A stretch of DNA of 64,000 nucleotides from Xanthomonas hortorum pv. pelargonii (GTDB taxonomy: Bacteria > Pseudomonadota > Gammaproteobacteria > Xanthomonadales > Xanthomonadaceae), in NCBI RefSeq assembly GCF_024499015.1, contig NZ_CP098604.1, forward strand, positions 1,922,001 through 1,986,000. The letters are read 5' to 3'. The number at the start of each line of letters is the position of its first letter. Positions within the stretch are counted from its first letter, which is position 1. The notes beneath the pieces were generated by a model, which had not been told where the DNA came from, searched no databases, and saw only the letters and a program-made list of their open reading frames with translations. Below, in pieces: positions 7,004 to 60,811 of the stretch. Made by a program: the position numbers and the translations under genes.

Positions 7004-7187
7004 GAGCGGCCGTGTGGGCGCGTCGTCAAGTGAAGTACTCGGTAAACCACGGTCAAGCCGCTCAATCGGATGTGAGCCGACTTCAAACTCCACGCAGGCA
7101 TCGGAGGACCGCATTGCAGCCACGCTGCACGCGGCACATGCGTACTGCCCGCAGCACTGCCAATCCGGCTAGCGTCTCGCTGACGCC

Positions 7188-7628
<441 letters not shown>

Positions 7629-7715
7629 CTATCCTTACCGCCTGCCGACTGCCTTGCCGATGTCCCGCGTGTTCCGGCCTGCACTAGGCTTCCTACGGAC
7701 CTGCGGAGAACACCC

Positions 7716-7994
7716 ATGATCGATTTCAACCAGCTCGACGACCTTGCCCGCCGCCTCAGCGACTTGGTGCCGCCGGGCCTGCGCCAATCGCGCGAAGAAC
7801 TGCAGAGCACCTTCAAGGGCGCACTGCAGGCCGGCCTGGGCAAGCTGGACCTGGTCACCCGCGAAGAGTTCGACGTGCAGCGTGCGGTGTTGCTGCGCAC
7901 CCGCGAAAAACTCGACGCACTGGAACAGGCCGTCGCCGCACTGGAAGCACGCGCGCCCGGCTCGCCACCCGCAGCGCCACCCACCACTCCCTGA
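7716..7994 (+). CDS. ubiK: Ubiquinone biosynthesis accessory factor UbiK (YqiC family)
   Basis: 92 aa. N-terminal amphipathic helix followed by a coiled coil (EFDVQRAVLLRTREKLDALE, residues about 52-71), the layout of the BMFP/YqiC family that helps the UbiJ-UbiK lipid-binding step of aerobic ubiquinone synthesis. The Pro/Ala-rich tail (about 77-92) is common in xanthomonads. It lies 16 bp upstream of comM, an association seen in many gamma-proteobacteria. A GGAG box precedes the ATG. Confidence 0.85.
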   Translation: MIDFNQLDDLARRLSDLVPPGLRQSREELQSTFKGALQAGLGKLDLVTREEFDVQRAVLLRTREKLDALEQAVAALEARAPGSPPAAPPTTP

Positions 7995-8010
7995 CCTAAG
8001 GCCCTCCACC

Positions 8011-9531
8011 ATGAGTCTGGCGCTGGTGCACAGCCGTGCCCGCGTGGGGGTGCATGCGCCTGAGGTCCGGGTGGAAGTGCATCTCTCCGGCGGTCTTCCC
8101 TCCACCCAGATCGTGGGCCTGCCCGAGGCTGCAGTGCGCGAATCGCGCGAACGCGTGCGTGCCGCGCTGCTGTGCGCACAGTTCGAATTCCCGGCACGGC
8201 GCATCACCATCAATCTGGCGCCGGCCGATTTGCCCAAGGAAGGCGGCCGCTTCGACCTGCCAATCGCACTCGGCATTCTGGCCGCCAGCGGTCAGATCGA
8301 CCGCCAGGCCTTGGCCGAGTACGAATTTCTCGGCGAACTCGCCCTGACCGGCGAGTTGCGCGGTGTCGATGGCGTGCTGCCCGCCGCCCTGGCAGCCGCG
8401 CAGGCCGGCCGTCGCCTGATCGTGCCGCTGGCCAACGGTGCCGAGGCCGCCATCGCCGGCCACGTCGAAGCCTTCACCGCGCGCACGCTGCTGGAAGTCT
8501 GTGCCACGCTCAATGGCACCCAAAAGGCGCCCGCCGCCGAACTGGCGGTGCAGGCGCTCGGCGCGCGCGCCCTGCCCGACATGGCCGACGTGCGCGGCCA
8601 ACCGCATGCCCGCCGCGCGCTGGAAATTGCCGCAGCCGGCGGTCACCATTTATTGCTGGTCGGTAGCCCTGGCTGCGGCAAGACCTTGCTCGCCTCGCGC
8701 CTGCCCGGCCTGCTGCCGGAAGCCAGCGAGGCCGAGGCGCTGGAAACCGCCGCCATTACCTCCATCAGCGGTCGCGGACTGGATCTTGTGCGCTGGCGGC
8801 AACGCCCCTATCGGGCTCCGCACCACACCGCCAGCGCGGTCGCCTTGGTTGGCGGTGGCACACATCCACGCCCCGGCGAGATCTCGCTGGCCCACAACGG
8901 CGTGTTGTTTCTGGACGAGTTGCCCGAGTGGCAACGCCAAACGCTGGAAGTGCTGCGCGAGCCGCTGGAATCGGGCATGGTCACCATCTCGCGCGCCGCG
9001 CGCAGTGTGGATTTCCCGGCAAGATTCCAATTGGTCGCGGCGATGAATCCCTGTCCGTGCGGGTGGGCCGGCGATAGCAGCGGGCGTTGCCGTTGCAGCA
9101 GCGACACCATCGGCCGTTATCGCAGCCGGATCTCCGGGCCGCTGCTGGACCGGATCGATCTGCATGTCGAGGTCCCGCGCCTGCCGCCGCAGGCCCTGCG
9201 CAGCGGCAACGTCGGCGAGGACAGCGCCAGCGTGCGCACCCGCGTGGTCGCGGCACGCGTGCGGCAACTGGCACGTGCCGGCGTGCCCAACGCACAACTG
9301 GACCAAGCACAAACCGATCATCACTGCCGCCTGCAACACGACGATCAGCTGTTGCTGGAACGCGCTATCGAACACCTGCAGCTGTCCGCACGCTCGATGC
9401 ATCGCATCCTGCGCGTGGCACGCACCATCGCCGATCTCGACGACAGCGCGGTCATTGCAACGCGTCATCTGACCGAAGCGATCGGCTACCGCAAACTGGA
9501 TCGCGCGGTGGGCACGGCAAGCGCAGCCTAA
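8011..9531 (+). CDS. comM: Mg-chelatase-like AAA+ ATPase ComM
   Basis: 506 aa, the same length as E. coli YifB/ComM. Domains: N-terminal Lon-like ChlI fold (1-190, with AVRESRERVRAAL and NLAPADLPKEGGRFDLPIAL), AAA+ core with Walker A LLVGSPGCGKTLLA and Walker B VLFLDELPEW, and a zinc-finger-like insert CPCGWAG...RCRC. ComM is a hexameric helicase that promotes branch migration during natural transformation. ATG 8011 begins MSLALVHSRA, the conserved family start, although the frame is open into ubiK. Probably transcribed with ubiK. Confidence 0.93.
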   Translation: MSLALVHSRARVGVHAPEVRVEVHLSGGLPSTQIVGLPEAAVRESRERVRAALLCAQFEFPARRITINLAPADLPKEGGRFDLPIALGILAASGQIDRQALAEYEFLGELALTGELRGVDGVLPAALAAAQAGRRLIVPLANGAEAAIAGHVEAFTARTLLEVCATLNGTQKAPAAELAVQALGARALPDMADVRGQPHARRALEIAAAGGHHLLLVGSPGCGKTLLASRLPGLLPEASEAEALETAAITSISGRGLDLVRWRQRPYRAPHHTASAVALVGGGTHPRPGEISLAHNGVLFLDELPEWQRQTLEVLREPLESGMVTISRAARSVDFPARFQLVAAMNPCPCGWAGDSSGRCRCSSDTIGRYRSRISGPLLDRIDLHVEVPRLPPQALRSGNVGEDSASVRTRVVAARVRQLARAGVPNAQLDQAQTDHHCRLQHDDQLLLERAIEHLQLSARSMHRILRVARTIADLDDSAVIATRHLTEAIGYRKLDRAVGTASAA

Positions 9532-55332: not shown

Positions 55333-56256
55333 TCAATCTCGCATCAGCGTGGACTTGCCGAACAGGCTCTCCACCAGATCCACCGCCAGCTCGGCGGTCG
55401 CGTTGCGGTTGTCCAGCACCGGATTGAGTTCGACGATGTCCAGCGACCCCATACGCCCGGTGTCGGCAATCATCTCCATCACCAGCTGCGCCTCGCGGTA
55501 GTTGGGACCACCGGGCACGGTGGTGCCCACGCCCGGCGCGATGCTGGGGTCGAGGAAGTCCACATCGAAGCTCACGTGCAGATGGGTGTCCGCGCTCATG
55601 CCCTGCAAGGCGGTCTCCATGGTGCGCTTCATGCCGGCCTCGTCGATGTAGCGCATGTCGTAGACATCGATGCGGTGCTGTTTGATTAGGCGCTTCTCCT
55701 CCGGGTCCACCGAGCGGATGCCGATCTGCCGCACCTGCTCGGGCAGCAGCGCCGGCGCGCTGCCGCCCAGATGAGTCAGCGCCTGCGGGCCCAGCCCACA
55801 CAGGCAGGCCACCGGCATGCCGTGCACGTTGCCCGATGGCGTCACCTCGCTGGTATTGAAGTCCGAATGCGCATCCAGCCACAGCACCCGTAGCGGGCGC
55901 CCCTGTTCGCGGCAGTACTTGGCCACCGCCGTGATCGAACCGATGCCCAGGCAATGGTCGCCGCCGAGCATGATCGGCATGCGCCCGGCGCATAGTTCGG
56001 CATAGCTGGCGTCCATCAGCGCCTGGTTCCAGGCCACCACTTCGTCCAGATGCCGGTAGCCTGCCTGCGGGGCCAGCCAGGGATTGCGCGGGCCATCCAG
56101 ATTGCCCAGGTCGCGCACCTCCACCCCGCGGCCGATCAAGGCCTCCTGCAAGCCGGCGATGCGCAGCGCCTCCGGCCCCATCCGCGCGCCACGGTGGCCG
56201 GCGCCTATATCGGTGGGAACGCCAATCAGGGAAACCGGCAGGTACTGCGTCGCCAT
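55333..56256 (-). CDS. rocF: Arginase
   Basis: 307 aa ureohydrolase with all Mn ligands: LGGDHCLGIGS (His), LWLDAHSDFNT (Asp-His-Asp) and SFDVDFLDP (Asp-Asp). Arg-type substrate residues in NTSEVTPSGNVHGMP and the C-terminal VELNPVLDNRNATAELAV identify arginase rather than agmatinase. Makes ornithine and urea from arginine. Monocistronic. The start MATQYLPVSLIGVPTDIG fits homologues; 33 further open codons upstream look non-coding. Confidence 0.92.
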   Translation of the reverse strand: MATQYLPVSLIGVPTDIGAGHRGARMGPEALRIAGLQEALIGRGVEVRDLGNLDGPRNPWLAPQAGYRHLDEVVAWNQALMDASYAELCAGRMPIMLGGDHCLGIGSITAVAKYCREQGRPLRVLWLDAHSDFNTSEVTPSGNVHGMPVACLCGLGPQALTHLGGSAPALLPEQVRQIGIRSVDPEEKRLIKQHRIDVYDMRYIDEAGMKRTMETALQGMSADTHLHVSFDVDFLDPSIAPGVGTTVPGGPNYREAQLVMEMIADTGRMGSLDIVELNPVLDNRNATAELAVDLVESLFGKSTLMRD

Positions 56257-56717: not shown

Positions 56718-57170
56718 ATGCCGCACAACGCCGTCAACCAGGTCGTCAAGGCTGCCGTGGGCGAGGTCGCGCGGGCGTCGCATCAGTACGATCTGCAGCG
56801 CATCGGCCGCGAGTTCGCGCAGACCATCGAGCGCGAGCCAGGCATCCGTTTGTTGATGCTGTCCACCGCCGACGGGCGCGCCATTACCGAGCAATCCAGT
56901 CTGGATGTCGACGGTCGCCGTCTGGCGGCGATGGCCAATTCGTTTCTGACCCTGGGCGAGACCCTGGCGCGCGAATCCAGTCTGAGCGAGGCCGATTACG
57001 CCACCGTCAGCACCCGTGGCGGCCAGCTGGTGCTGATCCGCATTCGCGCCGACAAGCCGCTGACGCTCACCGCAATTGGCGGCCCGCAGCTCAATGCCGC
57101 CGCCCTGTTGTTCAACGCACGCGACTGCGCCGGCCGTCTGGCCAAGGCCATGGCGCAACCAGCGACCTGA
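56718..57170 (+). CDS. Roadblock/LC7 domain protein A
   Basis: 150 aa. Central roadblock/LC7 pattern: long helix (YDLQRIGREFAQTIEREPGI), strand RLLMLSTADGRAITEQS, helix RRLAAMANSFLTLGETLARE, strands GGQLVLIRIRADKPLTLTAI and a final helix. Such proteins bind and regulate Ras-like GTPases (MglB, CvnB). It opens a run of four same-strand genes ending in a GTPase. GGGGAG precedes ATG 56718. Confidence 0.82.
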   Translation: MPHNAVNQVVKAAVGEVARASHQYDLQRIGREFAQTIEREPGIRLLMLSTADGRAITEQSSLDVDGRRLAAMANSFLTLGETLARESSLSEADYATVSTRGGQLVLIRIRADKPLTLTAIGGPQLNAAALLFNARDCAGRLAKAMAQPAT

Positions 57171-57233
57171 GGCTTGGCATTGTTCGTGCTTGCCTTTTGC
57201 GCACTCATTACTCACCGCTTGTAAGGACGTCCC

Positions 57234-57593
57234 GTGGCACAACTCAATCTGGAACACCTGCATTCAATCGCCGGCTTCGTCGGTGCCGCGCTGGTCGATA
57301 GCGACAGCGGCATGGCACTGGGCATGACCGGCGGCACCGATCTCAACCTGGAACTGGCCGCCGCCGGCAATACCGAAGTGGTGCGCGCCAAGCGTCGCAT
57401 CGCCGAGCAGCTCGGTCTGAACGACACCATCGAAGACATCCTGATCACCCTGGCCCGCCAGTACCACCTGCTGCGTCCGCTGGAGAGCAACGGCACGCTG
57501 TTCTTGTACGTCGTGCTGGACCGCGCCAAGGCCAATCTGGCGATGGCCCGTCACGAGCTCAAGGCGTTCGAAAAGACCCTCGACTTCGGTTGA
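57234..57593 (+). CDS. Roadblock/LC7 domain protein B
   Basis: 119 aa. GTG start after AAGGACG. Roadblock-like: IAGFVGAALVDSDSGMALGM (strand), helix with NTEVVRAKRRIAEQLGLNDT, strand EDILITLARQYHLLRPLESN, strand GTLFLYVVLDRAKANLAMAR and last helix. 63 bp after protein A. A second roadblock protein in one operon could form a heterodimer with the first. Confidence 0.78.
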   Translation: MAQLNLEHLHSIAGFVGAALVDSDSGMALGMTGGTDLNLELAAAGNTEVVRAKRRIAEQLGLNDTIEDILITLARQYHLLRPLESNGTLFLYVVLDRAKANLAMARHELKAFEKTLDFG

Positions 57594-57669
57594 TGCCAAC
57601 CTGGCGGCGCACGCGTCGCCTGCCCGGCCTGCCGGTCTGCACCGGCAGGCGTCGCACTCCAACGCGCCG

Positions 57670-58602
57670 ATGCGGCGCCATGTCATGACCATACCCATTC
57701 ACGCCCTGCGGGTCGCTACGGCCGGCCTGGACCTGCTGCACACCACGCGCCTGAAACTGGCGTGCTCGCTGCTGCTGGCCGAGCGCGTCGACGTGCAATT
57801 GGGCGAGTGGCCGCAACACGCGGCCGACGTGGTGGTGCTGGGTCTGGAAAGCGCCGACGGCTTAGCCGCGTGGCAGGCGTTGCAAGGCCAGCCGATGCGC
57901 GTGCTGGTGGTATCGCGCACACCGGTCGCCGGCGCATGGATCAAGCACGGCGCCACCGTGCGCGAACTCAACGAACACCTGCGTCTGCTGCTGTCCTCGC
58001 CGCATAACGTGCAGATCGCCGAACCGGCGCTGCTGATCCGCCATTGCCGCGGTGAATTCGGCAACGCTGCAGTGCAGCTACGCCACGCGCAGCTGCACGT
58101 CCGTGTAGATCCGGCCAATGCCTGCGTGCAACTTGCACCCGGCCTGCCGTTATCCGAATTGGTCGCCGCACTGGATCGCCCCGGTTGGCAGGTCGCACCG
58201 GACACAACCGATGCCGCACTGACGCAACGCATCTCATTCGAAGCGCTGTATTTCGCCCTGCCCGAGCATCTGCGCCCCGCGCTGCCGGCGGTGGAACCCA
58301 GCCATGCGCTGCAACTGCGCCAATGGCCGGAGCTGAGTGCCGAAACCAGCTCGCCCGCACAGTTGCTCGCCATCGCCCACCTGCACGCGCGTCCGTGGCG
58401 CGCGCAGGCGCTGGCCAACGCTTGCAAGCTGCCGCTGCAAACGGTGGAATGCCTGTTCGCCGCTGCACTTGCCAGTGGCCTTGCCCAGACTGCGGAGATT
58501 CCCGTGCCTGCAATGCAGACTCGTCCGGACAGCAGCAACTCCCGGTTCTTCTCCTGGGTCGCACGTCGGTTTGGCCTCTCTCTCTTTCAGGCGCAGTCAT
58601 GA
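57670..58602 (+). CDS. Unrecognised adaptor: receiver-like plus winged-helix protein
   Basis: 310 aa, cytosolic. I recognise no named family. Residues about 40-115 alternate strands and helices as in a receiver domain (ADVVVLGLESADGL, MRVLVVSRTPVAG, VRELNEHLRLLL) but lack the phospho-Asp and Lys. A middle beta-rich part (about 120-220) follows. Residues about 235-285 (PAQLLAIAHLHARPWRAQAL, then CKLPLQTVECLFAAALASGL) look like the winged helix of DUF742/CvnC. It overlaps the GTPase start by 4 bp (ATGA). Start may also be M6 (57685). Confidence 0.7.
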   Translation: MRRHVMTIPIHALRVATAGLDLLHTTRLKLACSLLLAERVDVQLGEWPQHAADVVVLGLESADGLAAWQALQGQPMRVLVVSRTPVAGAWIKHGATVRELNEHLRLLLSSPHNVQIAEPALLIRHCRGEFGNAAVQLRHAQLHVRVDPANACVQLAPGLPLSELVAALDRPGWQVAPDTTDAALTQRISFEALYFALPEHLRPALPAVEPSHALQLRQWPELSAETSSPAQLLAIAHLHARPWRAQALANACKLPLQTVECLFAAALASGLAQTAEIPVPAMQTRPDSSNSRFFSWVARRFGLSLFQAQS

Positions 58603-59141
58603 GTCTTCCGGCCAACAAACTGGTGTTCGTTGGCGGCATGGGCGCCGGCAAGACCACGGCAGTGCGCGCCATTTCCGACGTGGAGCCGGTCAGCACCGAG
58701 ATGCCGCTCAGCCAGGATGCCTACGGCGACAAGACCTACACCACGGTCGCACTGGACTACAGCTCGATCGAGCTGGAAGACGGCGAGTTGCTGCACGTGT
58801 ACGGCGTGCCGGGCCAGAAATACCTGGATTTCATGTGGCCATTGGTCTGCGACGGCGCCTTGGGCGTGATCGTACTGACCAGCGCGCGCGATCCACAGAT
58901 GCGTGAGAGCACGCTGGACTTGCTGCGCGAGTTTTCGCAGATCGCACCCGAGGCCAGCCTGGCGGTGGGCATCACCATGACCGACGAAATGGAGGATTTT
59001 CTGCTGCCGCCCTTCCGCGATGCACTGGTGGCCGAAGGCTTCCGCATCCCGGTCATGCGCGTGGATGCGCGCTCGGCCACCCAGATCACCTTCCTGGTGA
59101 AATCGCTGCTGTCCTATCGCTACACCTCGGCTCACAGCTGA
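58599..59141 (+). CDS. Small Ras-like GTPase (MglA/CvnD-type)
   Basis: 180 aa. G1/P-loop FVGGMGAGKTTAVR; switch-type region with TYTTVALDYSSIEL; G3-like VYGVPGQKYLDFMW (DxxGQ replaced by GVPGQ, as in CvnD-type proteins); a G4 position at GITMTDEM rather than NKxD. Deviations from canonical G4 suggest unusual nucleotide specificity. The last gene of the operon. Together with two roadblock proteins it should form a switch module, by analogy with MglA/MglB and conservons. Confidence 0.82.
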   Translation: MSLPANKLVFVGGMGAGKTTAVRAISDVEPVSTEMPLSQDAYGDKTYTTVALDYSSIELEDGELLHVYGVPGQKYLDFMWPLVCDGALGVIVLTSARDPQMRESTLDLLREFSQIAPEASLAVGITMTDEMEDFLLPPFRDALVAEGFRIPVMRVDARSATQITFLVKSLLSYRYTSAHS

Positions 59142-60735: not shown

Positions 60736-60811
60736 TGGTGCCGGCACCCGGATTCGAACTGGGGACCTACCGCTTACAAGGCGGTTGCTCTACCAACTGA
60801 GCTATGCCGGC
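60736..60811 (-). tRNA. tRNA-Thr (anticodon TGT)
   Basis: 76-nt cloverleaf including encoded CCA. Acceptor stem GCCGGCA; D-arm AGCTCAGTTGGTAGAGCA; anticodon stem-loop ACCGC-CTTGTAA-GCGGT giving anticodon TGT; T-arm CCCCAGTTCGAATCCGGG. Reads ACA codons, and ACN by wobble with modification. Confidence 0.95.

Follow-up and report, generated by a model that had tools for sequence, protein, structure and literature searches.

An MglA Group 3 GTPase operon in Xanthomonas hortorum and its third protein as a putative signal-input arm

The window analysed here, a stretch of 64,000 nucleotides from Xanthomonas hortorum pv. pelargonii (contig NZ_CP098604.1, positions 1,922,001 to 1,986,000), carries four + strand genes in series at 56718..59141 that encode, in order, roadblock A, roadblock B, a third protein and a small GTPase. 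Judged by its sequence, this operon belongs to Group 3 of the MglA-type GTPases, a class catalogued in 2014, and it is a genuine, conserved member of that known, functionally dark class. According to passages of the classification (Wuichet & Sogaard-Andersen 2014, PMC4316618), Group 3, its occurrence in Xanthomonas and its two-roadblock arrangement have been known since then; the new part is the evidence for coupling between the third protein and the GTPase, from which the third protein looks like an exchangeable sensor, or signal-input arm, of the GTPase.

Evidence for coupling of the third protein to the GTPase

The third protein (57685..58602, + strand; 305 amino acids, or 310 with a start at 57670) was listed in a first-pass annotation as a 310-residue unrecognised protein; it is indeed present, and some of its domains can now be recognised. 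It comprises a degenerate receiver-like N-terminal domain, a middle domain, an L..WP motif, a winged helix and a C-terminal basic helix, with the receiver (REC)-like fold and the winged helix both apparent in its predicted structure. A Foldseek structure search with the whole protein gave no match at E <= 0.001, and a second structure comparison (VIA) had good coverage for residues 4-110 only. The closest relative, at 98% identity, is X. hortorum-named. We refer to the winged helix and C-terminal helix together as the module.

The module is encoded directly upstream of the GTPase (same strand, gap of -30 to 500 bases) at 19 loci each among the 20 from the family and the 20 from the class, and at 75 of the best 80 genome-contig loci listed, all selected by their GTPase rather than by their third protein; over distinct loci the count is 112/118, since L086/L112 and L083/L130 are each one stretch counted twice. 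The two also occur in one chain. Among 43 proteins gathered with a fused query, which prove that fusions exist but give no frequency, 16 (including the query's own protein) combine module and GTPase, eight of these having a receiver-like domain as well, and a further three combine a receiver-like domain with the GTPase; 14 of the 23 proteins examined from the remaining 24 match Robl_LC7 at E <= 0.01. Single-chain arrangements in this set (P0199-P0241) include third protein-GTPase, receiver-GTPase and GTPase-roadblock fusions. Moreover, in four genomes a BLUF blue-light domain stands in place of the third protein's N-terminus. Because the N-terminal domain has been swapped for a light sensor, an input role fits the third protein better than an output role. 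Ras-like switches are common in proteobacteria, and the fusions and sensor swap suggest that the third protein is the Group 3 input arm. The BLUF-module loci (L103:2860-4931, L246, L247 and L248) adjoin an MglA-type GTPase and two roadblocks, and we regard these operons as a candidate natural light-gated Ras-like switch. The fusions would be suited to structure work, and the BLUF version could be switched by light.

The residues of the third protein suggest how it might work. At the columns assigned to the phosphoacceptor Asp and the conserved Lys of receiver domains, the window has G and H, with a non-conserved Lys one residue before the assigned Lys column. Across 56 aligned rows, D is found in 18 and K in 15, and the Asp is missing from 22 of the 23 Xanthomonas-type rows. 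This loss of key residues in Xanthomonas-type copies makes a binding partner, rather than a phosphoryl group, the expected trigger. The putative recognition helix of the winged helix has a mean of 0.62 Lys/Arg per 15 residues, with none at all in 42/93 sequences, whereas control helices from MarR, GntR and LysR proteins of the window's own genome average 2.8, 2.0 and 2.2, respectively, with none in 0/48; it is also more hydrophobic (60% versus 35-42% in controls). A hydrophobic helix with so few Lys/Arg argues for a protein-protein role, and counts against DNA binding as the published mode of action of Group 3. The C-terminal tail has a mean net charge of +3.4 over 92 sequences, and its amphipathicity is modest (mean z of 1.5 versus shuffles; control, 0.9).

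The GTPase and its roadblock partners

The GTPase (58599..59141, + strand; 180 amino acids) overlaps the third protein by an ATGA at 58599..58602, in which the stop of one meets the start of the other. Four consecutive genes with this overlap had been described in the first-pass annotation and are confirmed from the sequence, and its description of the last as a Ras-like GTPase is borne out by motifs, tree and Pfam (ATP_bind_1 at 33.5 bits, plus a weak Roc match). The motifs are GGMGAGKTT (G1), YTTVALDY (G2), GVPGQ (G3), a G4 region, GITMTDE, that lacks NKxD, and VDAR (G5). In the relevant passages of PMC4316618, MglA-type GTPases are split into five groups, of which Group 3 is nearly confined to beta/gamma-Proteobacteria, with Xanthomonas, Stenotrophomonas and Neisseria named; its members often lack the NKxD Lys, retain DAR, and are accompanied by one or two MglB genes, a 1:2 GTPase:roadblock ratio being described already, and by a conserved partner in which Phyre2 showed a receiver-like N-terminus and a winged-helix C-terminus. 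On these points the window agrees: its GTPase lies within the expected 150-240 residues, its G2 has Thr where Group 1 carries Arg, its G3 is a variant of the GTPGQ type, and it has no NKxD in G4 and DAR in G5, the last two much as in relatives; it is accompanied by two roadblock genes and by a third protein of the expected architecture. Among 96 relatives, G3 is GTPGQ in 78 and, as in the window, GVPGQ in nine; the window and most relatives retain the GTP-binding motifs as they occur in Group 3. In a tree that contains no Group 1 or Group 4 sequences, the 96 Group 3-like relatives and four BLUF-linked GTPases form one group, with a support of only 0.585, and the CvnD clade (0.998) and a Deinococcus-Thermus clade (0.992) are separate from it.

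Roadblock A (56718..57170, + strand; 150 amino acids) matches Pfam Robl_LC7 at 27.2 bits, against a cut-off of 23, and the profile of its family, made from 44 relatives with the window's own copy excluded, matches conservon CvnB at 98.4% in hhalign. It carries an Asp-Gly pair of the kind remarked on in part of PMC4316618. By analogy with MglB and MfpD, roadblock A is a predicted GTPase-activating protein (GAP) of the MglB/CvnB type. Roadblock B (57234..57593, + strand; 119 amino acids) is below the Pfam cut-off for roadblock; its predicted structure has a clear Roadblock/LC7 fold, and we consider it a divergent roadblock that may serve as a second subunit or scaffold. Two roadblock proteins, as first annotated, are therefore recognised, A by Pfam and B by predicted structure, rather than two proteins without the fold. 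In the genome that holds the window, the GTPase type is matched once, and one roadblock is detectable by Pfam.

Proposed mechanism and alternatives

We tentatively favour, with a little less than even confidence, a Group 3 module in which the third protein would bind the GTPase as an input-coupled regulator resembling a guanine nucleotide exchange factor (GEF), roadblock A would be the GAP, and the output would be a surface machine. The GTPase would be the switch. The Xanthomonas third protein would contact it directly through the winged-helix and C-terminal-helix module and pass a signal in, most likely by promoting nucleotide exchange, thus loading the GTPase; roadblock A, probably with roadblock B, would unload it by accelerating GTP hydrolysis. 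These roles are proposed by analogy: passages of PMC13343842, PMC9769811 and PMC13015309 report that, for MfpB, the CvnC-type DUF742 protein MfpC is a GEF and the roadblock MfpD a GAP. The GAP and GEF labels are swapped in a figure legend of one of PMC13343842 and PMC13015309, and the latter, in the part concerned, reports mfpC in Actinobacteria only. The N-terminal domain of the third protein would be the exchangeable input, and the Xanthomonas version, a receiver-like domain that is apparently non-phosphorylatable, would answer to a binding partner. Type IV pili, or another surface machine of that sort, are the probable output.

Several results weigh against this reading. When 20 regions were selected by module match instead, a GTPase match was found in 15 and none in five (L230, L234, L239, L242 and L244), nor was there one beside the first of the copies in L235; of the five regions, at least two are weak module matches. 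The helix equivalent to the recognition helix is intermediate in CvnC (1.2 Lys/Arg; zero in 0/15) and resembles that of a DNA binder in the Deinococcus-Thermus partners (2.5 Lys/Arg; zero in 0/6). In hhalign, the module matches the Deinococcus-Thermus partners at 84%, CvnC at 58%, MarR at 56%, GntR at 12.5% and LysR at 2.6%, such that CvnC is about level with MarR; with the winged-helix part alone, MarR (69%) exceeds CvnC (57%). Lastly, PilM is present in 27/28 GTPase-carrying genomes versus 104/157 others (P = 0.0005), but the association is lost among genomes of at least 2 Mb (27/28 versus 95/112, P = 0.12). The flagellar control, FliF, gave 20/28 versus 75/157 (P = 0.024) and P = 0.39 at the same size cut; the presence lists and the size cut were compiled manually from the listed matches. 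We therefore dropped co-occurrence as significant evidence for a pilus link after the genome-size control. As a separate observation, one genome (G474; L234-L237) has six module matches, at least two of them in copies that have no detected GTPase beside them in the stretch examined.

OmpR-type regulators consist of a REC fold plus a winged helix, a plan that the third protein matches. It could thus be a response-regulator-like factor that places its winged helix on DNA, perhaps while the GTPase carries GTP, and the module's match to MarR and the Lys/Arg content of the Deinococcus-Thermus helix are consistent with this. Indeed, transcription control is suggested for Group 3 in passages of PMC4316618, and a CvnC8-CvnD8 DNA-binding complex was proposed in 2021 (PMC8510531). 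Nonetheless, the family's own recognition helix is hydrophobic and almost devoid of Lys/Arg, the phosphoacceptor Asp is missing from nearly all Xanthomonas-type rows, and the module is naturally fused in frame to the GTPase, such that we consider a transcription output distinctly unlikely. An alternative possibility, which we find doubtful but worth keeping in view, is that the third protein is an effector or scaffold that reads the GTP-bound state, or tethers the GTPase, with no exchange activity. Adjacency and fusions suit a reader equally with a writer; there is a precedent in SgmX, described in part of its literature as a downstream partner that reads GTP-bound MglA, and the basic, somewhat amphipathic C-terminal tail could be a membrane tether. 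The exchange of the N-terminal domain for a BLUF light sensor suits input over output.

Compatible with the favoured GEF-like input arm is control of polarity and type IV pili like that exerted by Myxococcus MglAB, the third protein here acting as a local polar receptor; we rate this as a live possibility that falls short of likely. Passages of PMC11112851 link mutation of an orphan mglB in Snodgrassella, a Group 3 bacterium, to altered colony-edge spreading on soft agar and to colonisation, and PilM co-occurs with the GTPase over all genomes; on the other side stand the PilM result for genomes of at least 2 Mb and the lack, in Group 3, of the Arg diagnostic of Group 1 MglA. In addition, the main text of a study of 38 type IV pilus genes in Xylella gave no hit for mglA, roadblock or GTPase, although Xylella's carriage of the operon was not checked. 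The type IV pilus role proposed in the first-pass annotation thus keeps its all-genome association and loses significance once genome size is taken into account. A pilus role for the operon is plausible; polarity, pili or cyclic di-GMP (c-di-GMP) could each be the output, with modest support for pili, and c-di-GMP being suggested by the neighbourhoods of relatives. We believe it very improbable that, instead of being a functional switch, the operon is in some lineages a weakly selected relic: shortened copies in X. oryzae-named records, one frame-split GTPase and the loss of key receiver residues would fit such a relic, but the window and most relatives keep the Group 3 GTP-binding motifs, and X. 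oryzae records also include a full-length GTPase (P0008).

Distribution and relation to known systems

GTPase matches at E <= 0.001, distant matches included, are found in 28/185 class genomes and 37/149 family genomes, and names among the best 80 genome-contig loci include Chromatiales, Thiotrichales, Methylococcaceae, Neisseriaceae and Zoogloea. The shortened-looking copies in X. oryzae-named records are P0047, P0149 and P0184, with intact copies elsewhere, and one same-genus genome has its GTPase split between frames (L078 is among the shortened or split copies). A search of the open-licence PMC literature, which is no proof of absence, turned up no work on what the Xanthomonas operon does, nor any on a BLUF-linked MglA-type GTPase. 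In the window, the nearest recognised upstream gene is an arginase (55333-56241, - strand; Pfam), and reading the interval between it and roadblock A revealed no recognised gene. The gene downstream of the GTPase is presumably thymidylate-kinase-like, a name given from its sequence alone, and a tRNA-Thr (tgt) lies downstream of the operon at 60736-60811 on the - strand. A promoter and terminator scan of the four-gene locus gave chance-level results only.

Among the first 60 neighbour clusters of at least four loci listed, for which chance expectation was not computed, a gene of 211-237 amino acids lies between the GTPase and roadblock A at 9/20 class loci, and a TPR-like gene lies upstream of the third protein at 6/20 (e.g. 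L093:5222-5971). One of the former genes (L087:7932-8582) has a partial, sub-cut-off roadblock match (19.0 bits) and, by eye, a winged-helix-like N-terminus. GGDEF-related open frames lie at varying distance within ~7 kb of the GTPase at 7/40 loci, a count not compared with chance (L063, L066, L067, L074, L077, L081 and L092, the domain being tested in L081). An ABC-ATPase-related cluster spans seven loci; at the family locus L074, a frame at 7094-9103 with ABC-ATPase and dual-specificity phosphatase matches separates the GTPase from the roadblocks. Beside the Deinococcus and Thermus loci, genes of GGDEF, EAL or HD type are annotated, again as neighbourhood only and not compared with chance.

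The operon was first annotated as conservon-like. A wide kinship with MglA/MglB systems and conservons stands, as does the CvnC-like position of the third gene; the conservon label does not. Like the conservons, or AGPS (CvnA-D; MfpB-E; Group 2), the operon begins with a roadblock gene, encodes a small winged-helix protein immediately ahead of the GTPase, and has DAR. Unlike them, it has no adjacent histidine-kinase-like CvnA gene, the upstream neighbour being the arginase on the other strand; its third protein has no DUF742 match; its GTPase is outside the CvnD clade, with TMTD rather than NxF in G4; its input domain forms part of the third protein; and there are two roadblocks. We therefore rejected a conservon (Group 2) assignment, and the Group 3 module may function somewhat as a conservon does, yet is not one. 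The same holds for the third protein as a counterpart of CvnC, for which position agrees, the DUF742 gene lying after the roadblock gene and directly before the GTPase at 15/15 conservon loci, and sequence does not single out CvnC: DUF742 matched neither the third protein nor any of 32 module copies at E up to 1, in searches where HMMER filters drop most weak matches, and the module profile fits CvnC no better than MarR. CvnC itself matches MarR at 90.6% in hhalign. Specific homology of the module with CvnC/DUF742 is thus not supported, leaving only similarity of the C-terminal tails, which when compared alone match weakly (shuffles reached the score in 0/200 cases for CvnC and 1/200 for the Deinococcus-Thermus partners).

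The closest match is MglA Group 3 as described in passages of PMC4316618, in which a single GTPase is joined by one or two roadblocks and a receiver-like/winged-helix protein, with G4 lacking NKxD and DAR in G5; the window differs in having GVPGQ where GTPGQ is commoner, and in its gene order, in which roadblocks A and B precede the third protein and the GTPase comes last, and nothing was found that excludes it from the class. Myxococcus and Thermus MglA/MglB (Group 1) likewise pair a small GTPase with a roadblock partner, but there TVPGQ is found and the G2 Thr has an Arg beside it, whereas the window has Thr (TTVALDY) and GVPGQ. In Deinococcus-Thermus loci, which are probably Group 5, a gene for a winged helix and basic tail also directly precedes the GTPase (6/6 loci; DUF4388 in Thermus, hypothetical in five Deinococcus), with a different N-terminal domain, NAT rather than DAR in G5, and the Lys/Arg-rich helix noted above. 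RomR/RomX-MglA of Myxococcus can be likened by description only: here too the GTPase is acted on by a protein with a receiver domain (RomR receiver domain, PMC6785124; RomR/RomX as GEF, PMC9769811 and PMC9481161, each in part). We speculate, with limited credence, that Groups 2, 3 and 5 share a plan in which an interchangeable sensor joined to a winged-helix/terminal-helix module sets the nucleotide state of the neighbouring GTPase, DUF742, Group 3 and DUF4388-type proteins being one receptor-exchange factor. If so, nature would have made, in the BLUF version, a Ras-like GTPase gated by blue light, the third protein-GTPase fusions would be one-chain switches, and, should the exchange-factor reading hold, the conservon GTPase branch and proteobacterial Group 3 would work alike.
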